Shown here: piece by piece, positions 19,346 through 27,110 of the stretch
How the letters are laid out: every line of letters begins with the position of its first letter
Numbering within the stretch: the first letter of the stretch is position 1
NCBI GenBank assembly: GCA_026418155.1
Contig: JAOABV010000010.1
Location: forward strand, 1 to 44,235
Direction of reading: 5' to 3'
Length of the DNA stretch: 44,235 nucleotides
Source of the DNA: a candidate division WOR-3 bacterium
GTDB taxonomy: Bacteria > Hydrothermota > Tepidihabitantia > Tepidihabitantales > CAIPLT01
Notes under the pieces: generated by a model
Seen by the model: only the letters and a program-made list of their open reading frames with translations
What the model was told of the DNA's origin: nothing
The model's database searches: none
Position numbers and translations under genes: made by a program

Positions 19346-20335
19346 ATGGAGCAAAACAAGAAATTTAAATTCGGTTTTTATTGGGCCGCATCTTGCGGTG
19401 GTTGTGAAATCGCAGTTTTAGACCTTAATGAGAAAATTTTAGATGTTGTAAATCTTGCAGATATTGTCTTATGGCCCGTGGCAACTGATTTCAAATATAA
19501 AGATGTGGAAAGTTATCCGGATGAGTATATTGATGTTTGCTTTTTTAATGGTTCAGTTCGCAATGCAGAACAAGAACATCTGGCAAAACTCTTACGCAAA
19601 AAATCAAAACTGTTAATCGCTTTTGGTTCTTGTGCCCATCATGGATGTATTCCCGGCTTAGCCAATTTACACAACCGCCAAACTATCTTCCAAACTACTT
19701 ATCAAGAAACCGTCTCAACCAATAATCCCGCAAACAAATTACCACAAATTAATTTTTCATTAAATAATATTCAATTAACTTTACCTGAATTTTATGATGA
19801 GGTAAAACCTTTAGACCGAGTGGTTGCGGTCGATTATTATTTACCAGGATGTCCTCCACCTGTACCAATAATTGCTAATGCTGTGGAAGCAATTGCCAAA
19901 GGACAATTGCCAGATAAAGGAACAGTTTTAGCACCAATCAAAGCATTATGTGATGAATGTGAACGAAATACTAATCAAGATAAAAAGATGCCGGATATAA
20001 AACGAGTTTATGAAATTCAGGCAGACCCGAAAATCTGTTTTTTAGAACAGGGAATTATTTGTATGGGACCAGCAACCCGAAGTGGCTGTCAGACCCGATG
20101 TATTAATGGCAATTGGCCCTGCACTGGTTGTATGGGACCAGCCCCTGAAGTTCTTGACCAAGGCGCCAAGATGATTAGTGCGATCGGCTCAATTCTTAAA
20201 ATTGATGAAGAAAAAAAATTGACTGAAGAAGAAGTTGAAAAGTTAATCGATAAAATCAAAGATCCGATTGGCACATTCTATATGTATGGTTTAGCATCCG
20301 CAATCATAAATCGGAAAATAAAAAATGAAAAATAG
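19346..20335 (+). CDS. [NiFe]-hydrogenase small subunit (group 3-like)
   Basis: 329 aa with no signal peptide, so cytoplasmic. It carries the electron-transfer Fe-S clusters that serve the large subunit. C17-G-G-C20-E gives the first proximal-cluster ligands. G-S-C-A-H-H-G-C and Y-L-P-G-C-P-P-P complete the set. The C-terminal part has C-D-E-C, C-F-L-E-Q-G-I-I-C-M-G-P, G-C-Q-T-R-C and C-T-G-C-M-G-P, ligands for further clusters. The pattern resembles F420-nonreducing (Mvh-type) or NAD-coupled group 3 enzymes. No diaphorase, Hdr or maturation gene is adjacent. Confidence 0.9.
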   Translation: MEQNKKFKFGFYWAASCGGCEIAVLDLNEKILDVVNLADIVLWPVATDFKYKDVESYPDEYIDVCFFNGSVRNAEQEHLAKLLRKKSKLLIAFGSCAHHGCIPGLANLHNRQTIFQTTYQETVSTNNPANKLPQINFSLNNIQLTLPEFYDEVKPLDRVVAVDYYLPGCPPPVPIIANAVEAIAKGQLPDKGTVLAPIKALCDECERNTNQDKKMPDIKRVYEIQADPKICFLEQGIICMGPATRSGCQTRCINGNWPCTGCMGPAPEVLDQGAKMISAIGSILKIDEEKKLTEEEVEKLIDKIKDPIGTFYMYGLASAIINRKIKNEK

Positions 20336-20499
20336 CAACAAAAAACCTATATTAAAAATGAAATAAATACAAAAATGTTTCTTTCTATATTTTTTTGATT
20401 TCGGTATTTGTTTTTTAATTTTAGACTGGATTAAATAAATGTATAATCAAAGACTCATCAAGACTATGTACCTCTTTGTCTTGGTGTCGGGAAATTAAT

Positions 20500-21969
20500 A
20501 TGAACCGAATAACAATTGACCCAATTACCAGATTAGAAGGACACGGAAAAATAGAAATATTTTTGAATGGCAAAGGTGAAGTTCAAGAAGCCTACCTTCA
20601 GGTTCCGGAGTTGAGAGGATTTGAAAAATTCTGTGAAGGTAGAAAAGCCGAAGATATGCCACAACTCACTAGCCGAATTTGTGGCGTTTGTCCGGTTGCC
20701 CATCACTTTGCAGCAACCAAAGCTTTGGATATGGCATTTGGCGTTGAACCGACTTCAGTCGCCAAAAAATTAAGAGAACTTATCTATTGCGGATATATTA
20801 TTTACGACCATATTTTACATTTCTATTTTCTTGGCGGGCCGGATTTCATTGTAGGACCGACTGCTCCAAAAGAGAAACGAAACATTATCGGAGTGATTGA
20901 AAAAGTGGGGCTGGAATTGGCCAATGAAGTAATTAAACATCGGGCTTACGGGCAAAAGATGACAGAAATTTTAGGTGGCAAACCAACTCATCCAGTTTGT
21001 GGATTACCCGGCGGGCTCACCAAATCACTAACTAAAGATGATAAACTTGAAATAGAAAGGATGGCTCAATCCTGTTATGAATTTGCCCAAAAGACACTGG
21101 AAATCTTTCATAAAATTGTTTTAGAAAACCCGAGTTATATGGCTTTAATTGTTAATCCGGCATTATCGCTAAATGTCTATAATATGGGTTTGGTTGATGA
21201 AAAAAACCGAGTCAATTTTTATGATGGCATGGTTAGAGTTACTGACCCCAAAGGAAAAGAATTTATTAAATTCCATCCTTCTGATTATCTCAATCATATT
21301 GGAGAAGAAGTTTTAGAATGGTCCTATGTCAAAATCCCCTATCTTAAAAATATCGGTTTTCAAGGATTAAAAGAGGGCATTGAATCCGGTATTTATCGGG
21401 TAGGACCCTTAGGTCGATTAAATGCGGCTGACGGTATGGCAACACCTAAAGCCCAAGAAGAATATGAGTTAATGTATCAGACCTTTCAAACCAAACCAGT
21501 TACCAGCACCTTAGCTTATCATTGGGCAAGATTAATTGAGTTGCTATATGCTACGGAACGGGCATTGGAACTTCTTTCTGACCCAGAAATTACTGATACC
21601 AATATCCGTAATATGAATTTCAAGCCACAAAAAGCCGGTATAGGGATTGTCGAGGCCGCACGTGGAACTTTAATCCACCATTATGAAGTAACTGAGGATA
21701 TGTTAATTAAAAAAGTCAATTTAATTGTCGCCACAACTAATAATTATGGTGTAATTAATATGTCAATTCAAAATGCCGCTCGCCAGTTTATCAGAAACAA
21801 TAATATCAACCAACCAGATTTAGTCGATGGAATCTTAAATTCAATCGAGATGTTTTTTCGTGCCTATGACCCTTGTTTTGCCTGTGCCTCTCATACTTTA
21901 GGCACAATCCATTTACAAATTAAAATCTACGACCAAGATAAAAATCTCATCGCTTCAATTAACCAATAG
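20500..21969 (+). CDS. [NiFe]-hydrogenase large subunit
   Basis: 489 aa from ATG 20500 (an in-frame TTG at 20476 was rejected). It bears the Ni-Fe active site. The N-terminal pair is R-I-C61-G-V-C64-P and the C-terminal pair is D-P-C458-F-A-C461-A-S-H464. Twenty-five residues follow His464, where a maturation endopeptidase normally cuts; that protease is not in this window. Family D-P-I-T-R-L-E-G-H is at 7-15. No residue at the metal site is missing. A weak TATAAT sits at 20442-20447 and GGGAAA precedes the start. Confidence 0.92.
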
Positions 21970-22040: not shown

Positions 22041-23420
22041 ATGAATTATAAAAAAATATTGTCTTTCGCAATACTTTTAATTTCAGATATTTTTGTCCTT
22101 GTCATTGCCTATCTGATAGCTTATTTAATTCGAGCATATCTTTTACCAAAGATTTTCCCTTGGTTAGTACCAATTTTGCCTTTTCAAGTATTTATCTCAC
22201 GATTTTATTTAGTGTTACCATACCTTTTAATCTTTGCTTACGAAGGACTCTATAATCGACGGTTTGAATTTTGGGAGGAAACTCGACGACTGTATAAAAG
22301 TAATCTCATTGCAACTGCAATTATTATGATTATACTTTATATTACTCGCGGATTTATTGTTTCTCGACTAATCATCATATTAGTTTTCCTCATCAATTTT
22401 ATCTTATTACCGATTTATCGACTCATCGTCAAAAAAATACTACTTAAATTAAAAATCTGGTCGAATAATTTATTAGTCATTAGTACTCAAGAAACTTATC
22501 AAAAATTACGGAATTATTTTCAACACCATACTACATTAGGTTATCAACCCACTGCATTTATTGAGGTTAACCAAATTAATAATAGTAACATTAGCCAAAT
22601 TTTGAGAAAAGAAAAAATCAACTCAATTATTGTTTCTGTTCAAGAATTAAGTCAAAATCAATTATTGGACCTTTATGAACAAGCCGAAGGTAAAATCGAA
22701 GAATTTTTTGTTATACCGGCAATAGCGCAATTACAAACTATCGGTGTTGGCGTTGAACAATGGGAATCATTATTAGTAATGAAGTTTCGTTACAATCTTT
22801 TGCGTTTTGAAAGTCAACTCTTCAAACGGATTATTGATTTAGTCTTAGCAAGTCTTTTCTTGATTATCTTTTTACCCTTTTACTTGATTATCGCAATGCT
22901 AATTAAATTATCCTCACCGGGACCAATTTTATTTATCCAAAAACGATTAGGCAAAAACCGACGTATCTTTTCTTGTTATAAATTCCGAACCATGTATCTC
23001 GATGCGGATAAGCGATTAGAAAAAATCCTTGACAGTTCTCCAAAACTAAAAATGGAATGGCAAAAATATTTGAAAATCGCCAATGACCCAAGAGTAACTC
23101 CGGTTGGAAAATTTTTAAGACGCACCAGTCTGGATGAGTTGCCACAATTATGGAATGTTATCAAAAACGAAATGAGTTTAGTTGGTCCTCGGCCCTACCT
23201 AATAAAAGAAGTGGAAAATGCTAAAAAATCGATGGAGATTATTGGACGAGTCAAACCCGGCATTACCGGTCTCTGGCAGGTATCGGGTCGAAGCGATTTG
23301 AGTTTTGAAGAAAGAATGCGATTAGATGAACACTATGTTAAAAACTGGACAATTTGGATGGATTTGGTTATCCTGTTAAAGACAATCAAGGTCGTTATCA
23401 AGGCACAAGGAGCATACTGA
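22041..23420 (+). CDS. Polyprenyl-phosphate sugar-1-phosphate transferase (WbaP/WcaJ type)
   Basis: 459 aa. Membrane enzyme that starts a polysaccharide by moving a sugar phosphate onto undecaprenyl phosphate. Four N-terminal hydrophobic segments (about 5-130) lead to a cytosolic CoA-like domain (about 145-255). Another membrane helix (I-D-L-V-L-A-S-L-F-L-I-I-F-L-P) precedes the catalytic block: S-S-P-G-P-I-L-F-I-Q-K-R-L-G, Y-K-F-R-T-M, R-R-T-S-L-D-E-L-P-Q, V-G-P-R-P and G-L-W-Q-V-S-G-R. TATAAT at 22025-22030 lies 10 bases before ATG, with a poor -35. Stop and next start overlap (TGATG), so the following secreted propeller is co-translated. Confidence 0.9.
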   Translation: MNYKKILSFAILLISDIFVLVIAYLIAYLIRAYLLPKIFPWLVPILPFQVFISRFYLVLPYLLIFAYEGLYNRRFEFWEETRRLYKSNLIATAIIMIILYITRGFIVSRLIIILVFLINFILLPIYRLIVKKILLKLKIWSNNLLVISTQETYQKLRNYFQHHTTLGYQPTAFIEVNQINNSNISQILRKEKINSIIVSVQELSQNQLLDLYEQAEGKIEEFFVIPAIAQLQTIGVGVEQWESLLVMKFRYNLLRFESQLFKRIIDLVLASLFLIIFLPFYLIIAMLIKLSSPGPILFIQKRLGKNRRIFSCYKFRTMYLDADKRLEKILDSSPKLKMEWQKYLKIANDPRVTPVGKFLRRTSLDELPQLWNVIKNEMSLVGPRPYLIKEVENAKKSMEIIGRVKPGITGLWQVSGRSDLSFEERMRLDEHYVKNWTIWMDLVILLKTIKVVIKAQGAY

Positions 23421-25555
23421 TGAACGCAAATACTAAATGGCGCAAGCTAAATACTAAATCTTTTCTATTGGCAATATTACTGATTACTACAATCTGTTTG
23501 GCACAATGGCGAACTTATACCAATACCAATTTTATTAATGACATTATTGGTCAAGGAGATTATTTATATTGTGCAACTCGGGGTGGTCTGGTCGTGTTTT
23601 CGCGAACAGATGAATTATTTGTTGAATATTATACTAATGTCGAAGGACTACCTTCGAATCGGATTAATTGTCTGATATTCGATAAATCACAACAAATTTG
23701 GCTTGGAACTAACAATGGTCTCGCTATCTTTAACCCTAATACAAAAGAAATTAGTCGTTATCCGCTAATTGACCATTCTGCAGACAATATCGACTGTCTC
23801 AATGTTTCTGGCGACACAATTTTAGTTAGTTGTAATAACACTTTTTATCTTATTGATACCAAAGGCACAATTCCGTTTTCGGATGATATTATACTACAAC
23901 CGACTTTACCATCTGTTGCGGGACGAAAAATCTTTTCCTTGCAAGCTGGCCCCAGTGATTTTTGGATAGGCACTTTTCCCGAAGGTGTTATTAAATATAA
24001 CCGAAACTTACAAAACTACACAATATATCGGGCAATTGGCGATTCCGTTAAAGCGATGATACTAATTGGCGATACACTATATGTGGCAACAGAAAAATCA
24101 CTATCCCGATTTAATGGAATAAGTTTTGATACTATCAAAATGTTTCCACAGAATTATGTCATATTTGACTTAAAATATGAACGCAACCATTTTTATATCG
24201 CAACACGCTCTGCTCTTTTTGACTATGATCGAAGCAACTTATTTGCTTCAGCAACTTTACCGGTGATACTTTGGGAAGATTCCAGATGCATCTATTTATC
24301 CAATGGAATATGGGTCGGAGTTGGTGGTCAAGTATTTTTGGGTGGTGGCTTACGATATTATTTTAAGCACTGGCACTATTATTTTACTTCAAGCCCAATC
24401 TCAAATAATGTCTCTTGCGTTGTATCGGATACTGGAGGCACAATCTACACAACACATTATCCGAGTTTTACTTATAATTTTAAGACCATAAGTTATAAAA
24501 AAGGCAATGAATACTGGCAACTATTACGAGACACTTTATTTGATGGTTGGGTTTGTGCAGTTGATAAACAGAATAGATTATGGGTTGGACATTGGGCAGG
24601 AAGCAGTGGAATTAGTTGTTATGACCCGCAAACCGACTCCTGGTCTCTAAAAACCTGGCCCGGCACTCGTGGTGTCATTGGTGCCTTTGGCATTGATAAC
24701 AATGATACTAAATGGACCTATAATCAAGACAATAAAATAATTGCCATTACTAATAATGACAGCGAATATGTCTTTACTGTGCCTGGGCTTTCCCGTCCTG
24801 AACGCCATGGTTATGAATTTGCCTTTGACAGTAAAAATCGCGTTTGGCTGGTGGCTCAAGAAGGAATTATTATGTATGATTACAATAACACCTTGGATAA
24901 TCCGATTGATGATGACTATAAAATCTATCGCACCGCATCAGAAAAAACAATTAAGTCAATTGCGATTGATACCCGAGACCGGGTTTATATTGGTACTTCT
25001 CAAGGCTTAGCATTATTAAAAGATGACTCATTTCAGTTTTTCAATACCGAAAATATTCTGCGTGTAAAAACGGATTGCCAAGACCGAGTATGGTATCTTA
25101 CCAAAGATGGATTATCGATGTTTAATCCTTATACTCAAGAACATATAACTTACACTAAAGATAACAGCCAGATTATTCCAAATCTTGATCAAGACGAATC
25201 ATTTTATCAATGGCTCCATATTGATAATGCTCGCAATCGAATTTTGATTGCCACCAAAGAAGGAATAAGCCAATTTCAATTTCAAACCGGACCGCCAGCG
25301 CAACTTTCGGAAATAAAGGTTTTTCCCAATCCATTTATTGTCAGCAAGCATCAGACACTAACATTTGATAACTTACCCAATCAATCAATTGTGAAAATCT
25401 ACACCTTGGAGGGCAAACTTGTGACAACACTTATTGCAACATTATATTCACAACTTTTACACTGGGAACCAAACAATTTACCCACTGGTATTTATTGGGC
25501 GTATGTTACTTCACCTTATGGCAGAGGTATTACTAAATTTGCGATTGTCCGTTAA
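23420..25555 (+). CDS. Secreted propeller protein with C-terminal sorting domain
   Basis: 711 aa from ATG 23420, which has AAGGAG upstream inside the previous gene. The signal peptide is about 1-29 (S-F-L-L-A-I-L-L-I-T-T-I-C-L-A-Q). The body has blades typical of 'two-component regulator propeller' proteins: L-P-S-N-R-I-N-C-L, I-W-L-G-T-N-N-G-L, D-C-Q-D-R-V-W and Y-I-G-T-S-Q-G-L. The last 80 residues (F-P-N-P-F, Y-T-L-E-G-K-L-V, P-T-G-I-Y-W) are a FlgD/Type-IX-like sorting domain. No kinase or regulator domain is attached, so it is a secreted scaffold. The repeated N-T-K in its first 15 codons reflects a short DNA repeat. Confidence 0.85.
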   Translation: MNANTKWRKLNTKSFLLAILLITTICLAQWRTYTNTNFINDIIGQGDYLYCATRGGLVVFSRTDELFVEYYTNVEGLPSNRINCLIFDKSQQIWLGTNNGLAIFNPNTKEISRYPLIDHSADNIDCLNVSGDTILVSCNNTFYLIDTKGTIPFSDDIILQPTLPSVAGRKIFSLQAGPSDFWIGTFPEGVIKYNRNLQNYTIYRAIGDSVKAMILIGDTLYVATEKSLSRFNGISFDTIKMFPQNYVIFDLKYERNHFYIATRSALFDYDRSNLFASATLPVILWEDSRCIYLSNGIWVGVGGQVFLGGGLRYYFKHWHYYFTSSPISNNVSCVVSDTGGTIYTTHYPSFTYNFKTISYKKGNEYWQLLRDTLFDGWVCAVDKQNRLWVGHWAGSSGISCYDPQTDSWSLKTWPGTRGVIGAFGIDNNDTKWTYNQDNKIIAITNNDSEYVFTVPGLSRPERHGYEFAFDSKNRVWLVAQEGIIMYDYNNTLDNPIDDDYKIYRTASEKTIKSIAIDTRDRVYIGTSQGLALLKDDSFQFFNTENILRVKTDCQDRVWYLTKDGLSMFNPYTQEHITYTKDNSQIIPNLDQDESFYQWLHIDNARNRILIATKEGISQFQFQTGPPAQLSEIKVFPNPFIVSKHQTLTFDNLPNQSIVKIYTLEGKLVTTLIATLYSQLLHWEPNNLPTGIYWAYVTSPYGRGITKFAIVR

Positions 25556-25664: not shown

Positions 25665-25829
25665 TCAATATTCTTCTTGTTCTTCTTCATCAAGAAATTC
25701 TTCGTCTGATTCTTCTTCAAATCCACCTGCCATACATTCGTCATAATCTGGACATTCGTCACAACAATCATCTCGTAATTTGCCTAATTCTTCACATTCT
25801 TCATAATAAGGGCAAATATCACAACACAT
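25665..25829 (-). CDS. Cys-rich mini-protein A (54 aa, acidic tail)
   Basis: A short gene with a strong Shine-Dalgarno (GGAGGT at 25834-25839 on the minus strand, 4 bases from ATG). The protein begins MCCDICPYYEEC. Cysteines at 2, 3, 6, 12, 22, 23, 26 and 32 form two CC-x2-C-x5-C modules joined by an L-R-D-D segment. The tail (residues 35-54) is almost all Glu and Asp. Each module could bind a zinc or an iron-sulfur cluster; that is inference. It is a paralogue of the gene just upstream on the same strand, with 18 of the first 33 residues identical and no gaps. I do not recognise a named family. Confidence 0.85.
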   Translation of the reverse strand: MCCDICPYYEECEELGKLRDDCCDECPDYDECMAGGFEEESDEEFLDEEEQEEY

Positions 25830-25926
25830 TTATACCTCCATTAATATAAATTTTAGATTGTTGGATTATTTATTTTTCTTCTAATATGGCATTTTTGCAA
25901 AATAGATGGTTTCATCGTCGCAATTT

Positions 25927-26094
25927 TCATTTTTTAATATATCGTCTTTTCGGTATCGTTATTTTCGGTTTTTCTTTTTCTTCATCCGATAGATCCATAC
26001 AAGAGTCAAAATATTTACATTGATGACAACAGTCATCTCGAAGTTGGGCTTTTTTTTCACATAATTCATAGCCCGAACAAGCACGACAACACAT
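25927..26094 (-). CDS. Cys-rich mini-protein B (55 aa, basic tail)
   Basis: Paralogue of mini-protein A, starting MCCRACSGYELC with the same eight Cys positions (2, 3, 6, 12, 22, 23, 26, 32) and the shared core L-R-D-D-C-C. The tail is the opposite in charge: K-E-K-P-K-I-T-I-P-K-R-R-Y-I-K-K. AGGAGG lies at 26105-26110, ten bases before the start. The two genes are 97 bases apart and probably share a transcript. Opposite tails suggest either pairing with each other or binding different partners (nucleic acid for the basic one). Function unknown. Confidence 0.85.
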   Translation of the reverse strand: MCCRACSGYELCEKKAQLRDDCCHQCKYFDSCMDLSDEEKEKPKITIPKRRYIKK

Positions 26095-26282
26095 TGATTA
26101 GGTTCCTCCTATGTTTTGACATCGCATTTTTATAAACACAATGCCGGTTATTGGGAAATTTTTTATTTATTTTTTTGCTATTAATGGTATCCATTTTATT
26201 TTTATGGGATAAGTTTTAAGGCAACCGCAAAGTCGATAACTGGTTTTCCGAAATGGTTTGTCCCAACATCACAAAACCAATT

Positions 26283-27110
26283 TTATCTGCTTTTATCCAT
26301 CATTATAATCAATTCTCGAGCAATTTCTGCTACCGCCGAAGCATAAGCCAAATTAGAATCAGCCAACGGATTATACTCAACGACATCACAACCGACAACA
26401 TTTAGACCGCTCAATTTTACAATCGATGCGAACAATTCGTGATATGATATACCTCCAGGTTCAGGGGTTTGCACAGCTGGCATAATCCCACAATCTAAGA
26501 CATCAATATCCAAAGTTAAATAACACGGCCTTTTATCAATTTTCTTTATGATTTCGTCAAGATAGGTTTCGACCTTAAAAAGAAACAAATTGTCATTCTT
26601 GGCTGGTCCAGTGAGTGAACGAATACCTAGTTGAAAAATATTTGTTAACGGCAAAATTTCCGCAATGCGTCGGATTACAGTCGCGTGACAAATTTTCTCA
26701 CCTAAATATTCATCTCTCATATCAGTATGAGCATCAAACTGAATTAAATTAAGGTCAGGGTAGAATTTTTTGAATTCCGAAATAATGGGTAAAGTAATCG
26801 TATGTTCACCACCTAAAAAGAGTATTTTTTTACCATTTTTAAGATAATCCGAAATTGCATTCTGAATCTGCTCAAAAGTATCTTTTATTGTTGCATAGGA
26901 TAAGATAATATCGTTGGCATCATAGATTTTTAAATCGGCAACATCCTTATTAAAATAAGGGCTATAGGATTCAATATTTTCTGTTGCCAGACGAATCTGA
27001 TTTGGTGCCAATCGACAACCTGGCAAAAATGAGCTGGAACGGTCATAGGGAACACCTAACACTACCGTTTGGGATTCAGTTAAAGTTGCTGTTGCAAAAT
27101 ACAATGCCAT
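26283..27110 (-). CDS. speB: Agmatinase/arginase-family ureohydrolase
   Basis: 275 aa. Ureohydrolases split a guanidino group with two Mn ions; the agmatinase branch makes putrescine. Metal ligands are visible: His103 in G-G-E-H, Asp126-x-His128-x-Asp130, and D201-I-D203-V-L-D206. The Asp206 is followed by Cys, where most members have Pro. Glu in P-E-P-G-G-I-S fits the agmatinase side chain-recognition loop. No other polyamine gene is nearby, so a formimino- or guanidino-substrate variant cannot be excluded. A promoter lies at 27125-27152. Confidence 0.82.
   Translation of the reverse strand: MALYFATATLTESQTVVLGVPYDRSSSFLPGCRLAPNQIRLATENIESYSPYFNKDVADLKIYDANDIILSYATIKDTFEQIQNAISDYLKNGKKILFLGGEHTITLPIISEFKKFYPDLNLIQFDAHTDMRDEYLGEKICHATVIRRIAEILPLTNIFQLGIRSLTGPAKNDNLFLFKVETYLDEIIKKIDKRPCYLTLDIDVLDCGIMPAVQTPEPGGISYHELFASIVKLSGLNVVGCDVVEYNPLADSNLAYASAVAEIARELIIMMDKSR

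Follow-up and report, generated by a model that had tools for sequence, protein, structure and literature searches.

The cysteine spacing C-x2-C-x5-C ligates a [4Fe-4S] cluster in the WhiB-like proteins (PMC7363131), is contained in the motif of the SPASM auxiliary clusters (PMC5715301), and in RseC forms a cluster that is sensitive to O2 (PMC11729352).

The stretch of DNA analysed here (44,235 nucleotides from a candidate division WOR-3 bacterium, hereafter the window) specifies two mini-proteins, A and B, each built of two CC-x2-C-x5-C modules. They are paralogues of one undescribed, well-conserved family of small proteins, and the best clue to what they do is their genomic linkage, in two phyla, to successive steps of one pathway, that of polyamine synthesis.

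Organization of the locus

The two adjacent genes lie on the minus strand, where the first-pass annotation had placed them: gene A (25665–25829) specifies 54 amino acids and gene B (25927–26094) 55, both being recognized as ORFs and by comparison with relatives. In this WOR-3 genome they close a conserved speB-B-A run, all on the same strand, which begins with an agmatinase (speB; 26283–27110, minus strand; TIGR01230, E 6.4e-73, above the curated cut-off). The strong Shine-Dalgarno sites reported earlier can be read directly upstream of each gene on the minus strand: GGAGG about 6 bases before the ATG of A (25830–25840; start region TGGAGGTATAA-ATG) and AGGAGG about 10 bases before that of B (26095–26110; start region AGGAGGAACCTAATCA-ATG). 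Gene order and the short gaps suggest that the mini-protein genes are co-transcribed with agmatinase. Scanning the window for Rfam elements revealed none, and a promoter and terminator scan found it no richer than shuffled sequence.

The neighbouring PorZ-like gene (23354–25555, plus strand), which is convergent to A, contains a type IX secretion sorting domain, scoring above the cut-off for TIGR04183 and below it for NF052228. Further along the plus strand (19346–21969) two genes read as the small and large subunits of a NiFe hydrogenase; genes of this kind are kept near the mini-protein locus across much of the order.

Sequence of the mini-proteins

Both proteins match CC-x2-C-x5-C-x9-CC-x2-C-x5-C exactly, and this pattern occurs twice in the window but not once in 100 windows of equal composition generated by a first-order Markov model. 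Comparison of A with B reproduced the 18 identities in the first 33 residues that had been noted, all eight cysteines among them. Neither mini-protein possesses a signal sequence. The C-terminal tail of A is nearly pure acid (net −12), as was claimed, but that of B (DLSDEEKEKPKITIPKRRYIKK) is not simply basic: an acidic stretch is followed by a basic one, for a net charge of +3.

The view that the scaffold is itself an internal duplication also held. The two halves of a protein are identical at 1.39 of 7 non-cysteine positions against 0.68 expected, mostly through a proline after the third cysteine and an aromatic residue two positions further on (CCxxCPxYxxC). This excess is modest, being reached in 3% of common permutations that preserve relatedness, and it lends the putative duplication of each protein modest support beyond the cysteines.

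Family searches and distribution

Pfam, NCBIfam, PHROGs, PADLOC and PDB sequence searches with the mini-proteins yielded nothing significant, and a Foldseek search of PDB folds, with a low-confidence model as query, gave no match; the earlier statement that no named family is recognizable thus agrees with these searches. A match to a known zinc-ribbon or ferredoxin-like family, named by the first-pass annotation as evidence that would speak against novelty, was found in none of the profile libraries. A literature search for small cysteine-rich proteins tied to agmatinase or polyamine operons returned nothing relevant.

Within its phylum the family is confined to the order of the window, where 22 of 28 genomes carry a mini-protein gene. 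A GTDB-wide scan, in which a degenerate DNA pattern for the cysteines was used and the matches then translated, added Omnitrophota and one Auribacterota genome; many of the DNA matches were chance cysteine-rich repeats in the wrong frame and were discarded after translation. Sampling of 384 Omnitrophota and 44 Auribacterota genomes found mini-proteins in 11 and 2 of them, respectively. The copies outside WOR-3 all have acidic tails.

All eight cysteines are invariant among 28 aligned members from the three phyla, at a mean column identity of only 36%. In one Omnitrophota copy outside this alignment (L190:7818–7991, minus strand) a tyrosine replaces the second cysteine of the second CC pair. 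Values of dN/dS in closely related pairs are mostly 0.02–0.3, rough figures given such short sequences. Together with the conservation of the cysteines they indicate that the mini-proteins are real and selected, and the family is under purifying selection.

Two kinds of more distant sequence were encountered. Four Omnitrophota genomes that carry the family also specify an eight-cysteine paralogue (NCCExCQVYWTCETKWYRGE...CCPVCNYYKICL) whose spacer is longer and whose tail is rich in lysine (L176–L179, match at about position 1501). It adjoins a transporter-like gene and, in at least one genome, as a profile match shows (L176; Pfam RnfC_N, E 3.6e-28), lies near an RnfC gene. This hints at a broader superfamily that keeps company with redox genes. 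The viral contigs contained no relative except for one 40 amino acid ORF held in common with an Archaeoglobus bin (L120:1056–1178 and L147:9170–9292, minus strand) and lacking profile support. This ORF shows a similar doubled CC-x2-C, with x4 rather than x5 in its first half; its score with the family profile falls below threshold, and it may be convergent.

Relationship of A and B

Among the 22 carriers of the order, B and A occur together in six, B alone in fourteen and A alone in two, while every Omnitrophota and Auribacterota carrier has the A type alone. Absence of the pair from close relatives, which the first-pass annotation would have counted against its proposal, is in part what is seen, the pair being found in three of the five genomes of the same family. 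Because each of the two genes can be found without the other, neither an obligate A-B complex nor a toxin-antidote pair is likely. The suggested interacting pair finds no support if taken as obligate, nor does the idea that one member is a decoy or chaperone of the other; of the DNA- or RNA-binding form that was also proposed, no sign of DNA or RNA binding was seen.

Core identity between genomes is 75% for A with A and 67% for B with B, compared with 43% between A and B within one genome. The A core is 60% identical to the Omnitrophota form and that of B 44%; A being the nearer, B looks like the derived paralogue in WOR-3. The duplication also looks older than the families holding both genes, and a tree of 33 columns gives the A/B split weak support. 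Opposite tail charges have endured in two separate lineages, although the B-lineage copy in G016, whose tail is net −1, shows that the sign of the charge can vary.

Linkage to polyamine genes

In all 22 carriers of the order the mini-protein gene lies directly downstream of agmatinase on the same strand, with gaps of 0–215 bp (for G013 and G022 the adjacency was taken from gene coordinates). Wherever a genome of the order has an agmatinase, that of the window included, it is the sole arginase-family gene present. Family f4 keeps agmatinase-B-(A) with every other neighbour changed. Two genomes of the order lack both agmatinase and mini-protein, but they are just 82–83% complete.

The converse does not hold. 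Agmatinase occurs alone in four genomes of the order, where no mini-protein copy was seen downstream of it, and in 76 genomes elsewhere in the phylum; in the latter group, 20 regions downstream of agmatinase were inspected in mini-protein-free genomes and no similar small ORF was found. These 80 genomes rule out that agmatinase in general needs the mini-protein, which is thus an order-specific addition, dispensable for the enzyme.

Pyruvoyl-dependent arginine decarboxylase (PvlArgDC) makes agmatine, the step before agmatinase. In both Auribacterota carriers, which are two related genomes, the mini-protein gene lies 36–42 bp before that of PvlArgDC on the same strand. The PvlArgDC of the window's own genome was considered as the site of a further mini-protein and ruled out, a deoxyhypusine-synthase-family gene coming after it instead (L196:3465–5138; G000:C37). 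The remaining polyamine pathway of this WOR-3 genome thus lies elsewhere than at the mini-protein locus.

Conserved linkage to polyamine genes is therefore found in the WOR-3 order and in Auribacterota, and not in Omnitrophota, and the clue is weakened because the Omnitrophota neighbours are not polyamine genes. There the gene upstream specifies a DUF5666-like secreted protein, and downstream lies either a KamA-family radical-SAM aminomutase or a DUF4912 and GH57 pair. The upstream product, as seen in loci L081–L143, is a conserved secreted protein of about 130 amino acids with weak similarity to DUF5666, and at some of these loci an ArsR-like regulator precedes it.

Possible function

The reading that we tentatively favour is that the mini-proteins are cytoplasmic two-centre metal accessory proteins of polyamine synthesis, behaving as redox- or metal-responsive adaptors. 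The existence of the family, its cysteine pattern, the purifying selection on it and its linkage to agmatinase and, in a second phylum, to arginine decarboxylase are what the data establish; the steps beyond these differ in strength. That the mini-proteins bind metal is very probable, a role in polyamine metabolism is possible and is put forward with reserve, and the adaptor mechanism, though the likeliest one, is doubtful as such. That each protein has two sites for metal or Fe-S is plausible and would fit the near-invariant cysteines. As to the kind of centre, we lean slightly towards [4Fe-4S] rather than Zn(Cys)4, because the half motif C-x2-C-(P)-x4-C matches the spacing of known [4Fe-4S] sites.

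Each of the two tandem CC-x2-C-x5-C copies in a chain would hold one metal centre, the fourth ligand of each half being the cysteine directly before it (CC), and each core would pair a short metal knuckle with a helix before running out into a disordered charged tail. The AlphaFold models have cores that are moderately confident by pLDDT (72–80; pTM 0.36), with no metal placed; a short helix leads to the last cysteine of each half and the tail is unstructured. In the WOR-3 order the genes would be transcribed together after agmatinase and their products would serve as dispensable accessories of the arginine-agmatine-putrescine pathway. The cysteine modules might sense or carry metal or electron state, while the charged tail might dock on a partner or bind the polycationic product.

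Of the other readings, the one with the strongest claim is a structural zinc mini-protein, with a Zn(Cys)4 knuckle in each half, that acts as a small adaptor or nucleic-acid binder and owes its place beside agmatinase to inherited gene order. Small zinc proteins often contain Cys4 knuckles, and conservation in much of the order extends to the PorZ-like, sugar transferase and hydrogenase neighbours, so that part of the linkage could be a matter of synteny alone; the different gene context in Omnitrophota points the same way. Inherited order sits less easily with family f4, where agmatinase-B-(A) is all that has been kept, or with Auribacterota, where the link is to the preceding enzyme of the same pathway, and no zinc-ribbon, zinc-finger or zinc-knuckle profile in Pfam or NCBIfam matched the mini-proteins. 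We consider it a credible alternative, yet a less likely one. Storage or detoxification of metal by a metallothionein-like protein that came by chance into an agmatinase operon is unlikely: the cysteine content of about 15%, the CC pairs and the small size are what it would lead one to expect, but the fixed spacing, the duplicated module and the conserved aromatic, proline and helix positions are at odds with the loose cysteine pattern of metallothioneins, no metallothionein profile in Pfam or NCBIfam matched, and no metal-stress genes are evident nearby.

Two further readings have very little in their favour. Small genes side by side with tails of opposite charge recall a toxin-antitoxin or decoy pair, in which a basic effector B would be neutralized by an acidic A; the partners do not always co-occur, however, as the B-only and A-only genomes attest, inheritance looks vertical and beside a metabolic gene, and no relative was found in plasmids, phages or PADLOC, all of which makes this most improbable. 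Equally hard to credit is a RiPP precursor peptide, to be modified into a natural product. A small cysteine-rich product, and a KamA-type radical SAM gene adjoining some of the Omnitrophota copies, would suit it, but KamA belongs to an amino-acid mutase family, the part of the mini-proteins that is conserved is the core and not a variable C-terminal peptide, and in WOR-3 no maturase, protease or exporter adjoins the mini-protein gene.

The two-centre metal accessory protein stays the preferred reading. Against it stands that neither agmatinase, a manganese enzyme, nor PvlArgDC is known to depend on an Fe-S partner or on an electron carrier. A more specific version of it, a double-cluster Fe-S family that is a redox-responsive partner of polyamine-making enzymes (agmatinase, PvlArgDC) and in which the opposite-charge tails of the two paralogues set the partner or polycation that each binds, is improbable. 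Were it true, it would constitute an undescribed link between the redox state of the cell and polyamine supply in anaerobes.

The family is missing from all protein-family libraries searched, and yet its eight-cysteine scaffold is almost fully conserved in three candidate phyla. If metal is bound, the mini-proteins would represent a compact duplicated Cys4 module of new spacing and offer a testable lead to an Fe-S or zinc accessory protein for polyamine synthesis in largely uncultured bacteria. At about 55 residues, their synthesis and metal analysis should be straightforward.

Comparison with known systems

In overall plan the mini-proteins resemble the bacterial 2[4Fe-4S] ferredoxins, having about 55 amino acids, eight cysteines, two pseudo-symmetric halves and, in the case of A, an acidic character. 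The ferredoxin spacing is C-x2-C-x2-C-x3-C-P as against CC-x2-C-x5-C, a difference that holds in every member, and the Pfam Fer4 profile matched none of them. One member scores E 0.17, which is not significant, with DUF2769 (PF10967), a family of unknown function.

The N-terminal Fe-S motif of RseC/RnfF and that of SPASM possess the same C-x2-C-x5-C spacing, and an RnfC gene lies close to that of the distant Omnitrophota paralogue. These motifs occur, however, in larger membrane or radical-SAM proteins, which show no sequence match to the mini-proteins.

With the WhiB-like (Wbl) proteins the mini-proteins share small size, solubility and the C-x2-C-x5-C spacing, present twice per chain. The G[V/I]WGG motif of WhiB is absent from all aligned members, and the WhiB-like profile PF02467 gave no significant match (best E 0.28, in one of 22 members). 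WhiB holds one cluster and its first cysteine is distant, whereas in the mini-proteins the fourth cysteine is adjacent (CC) and the whole module is doubled.
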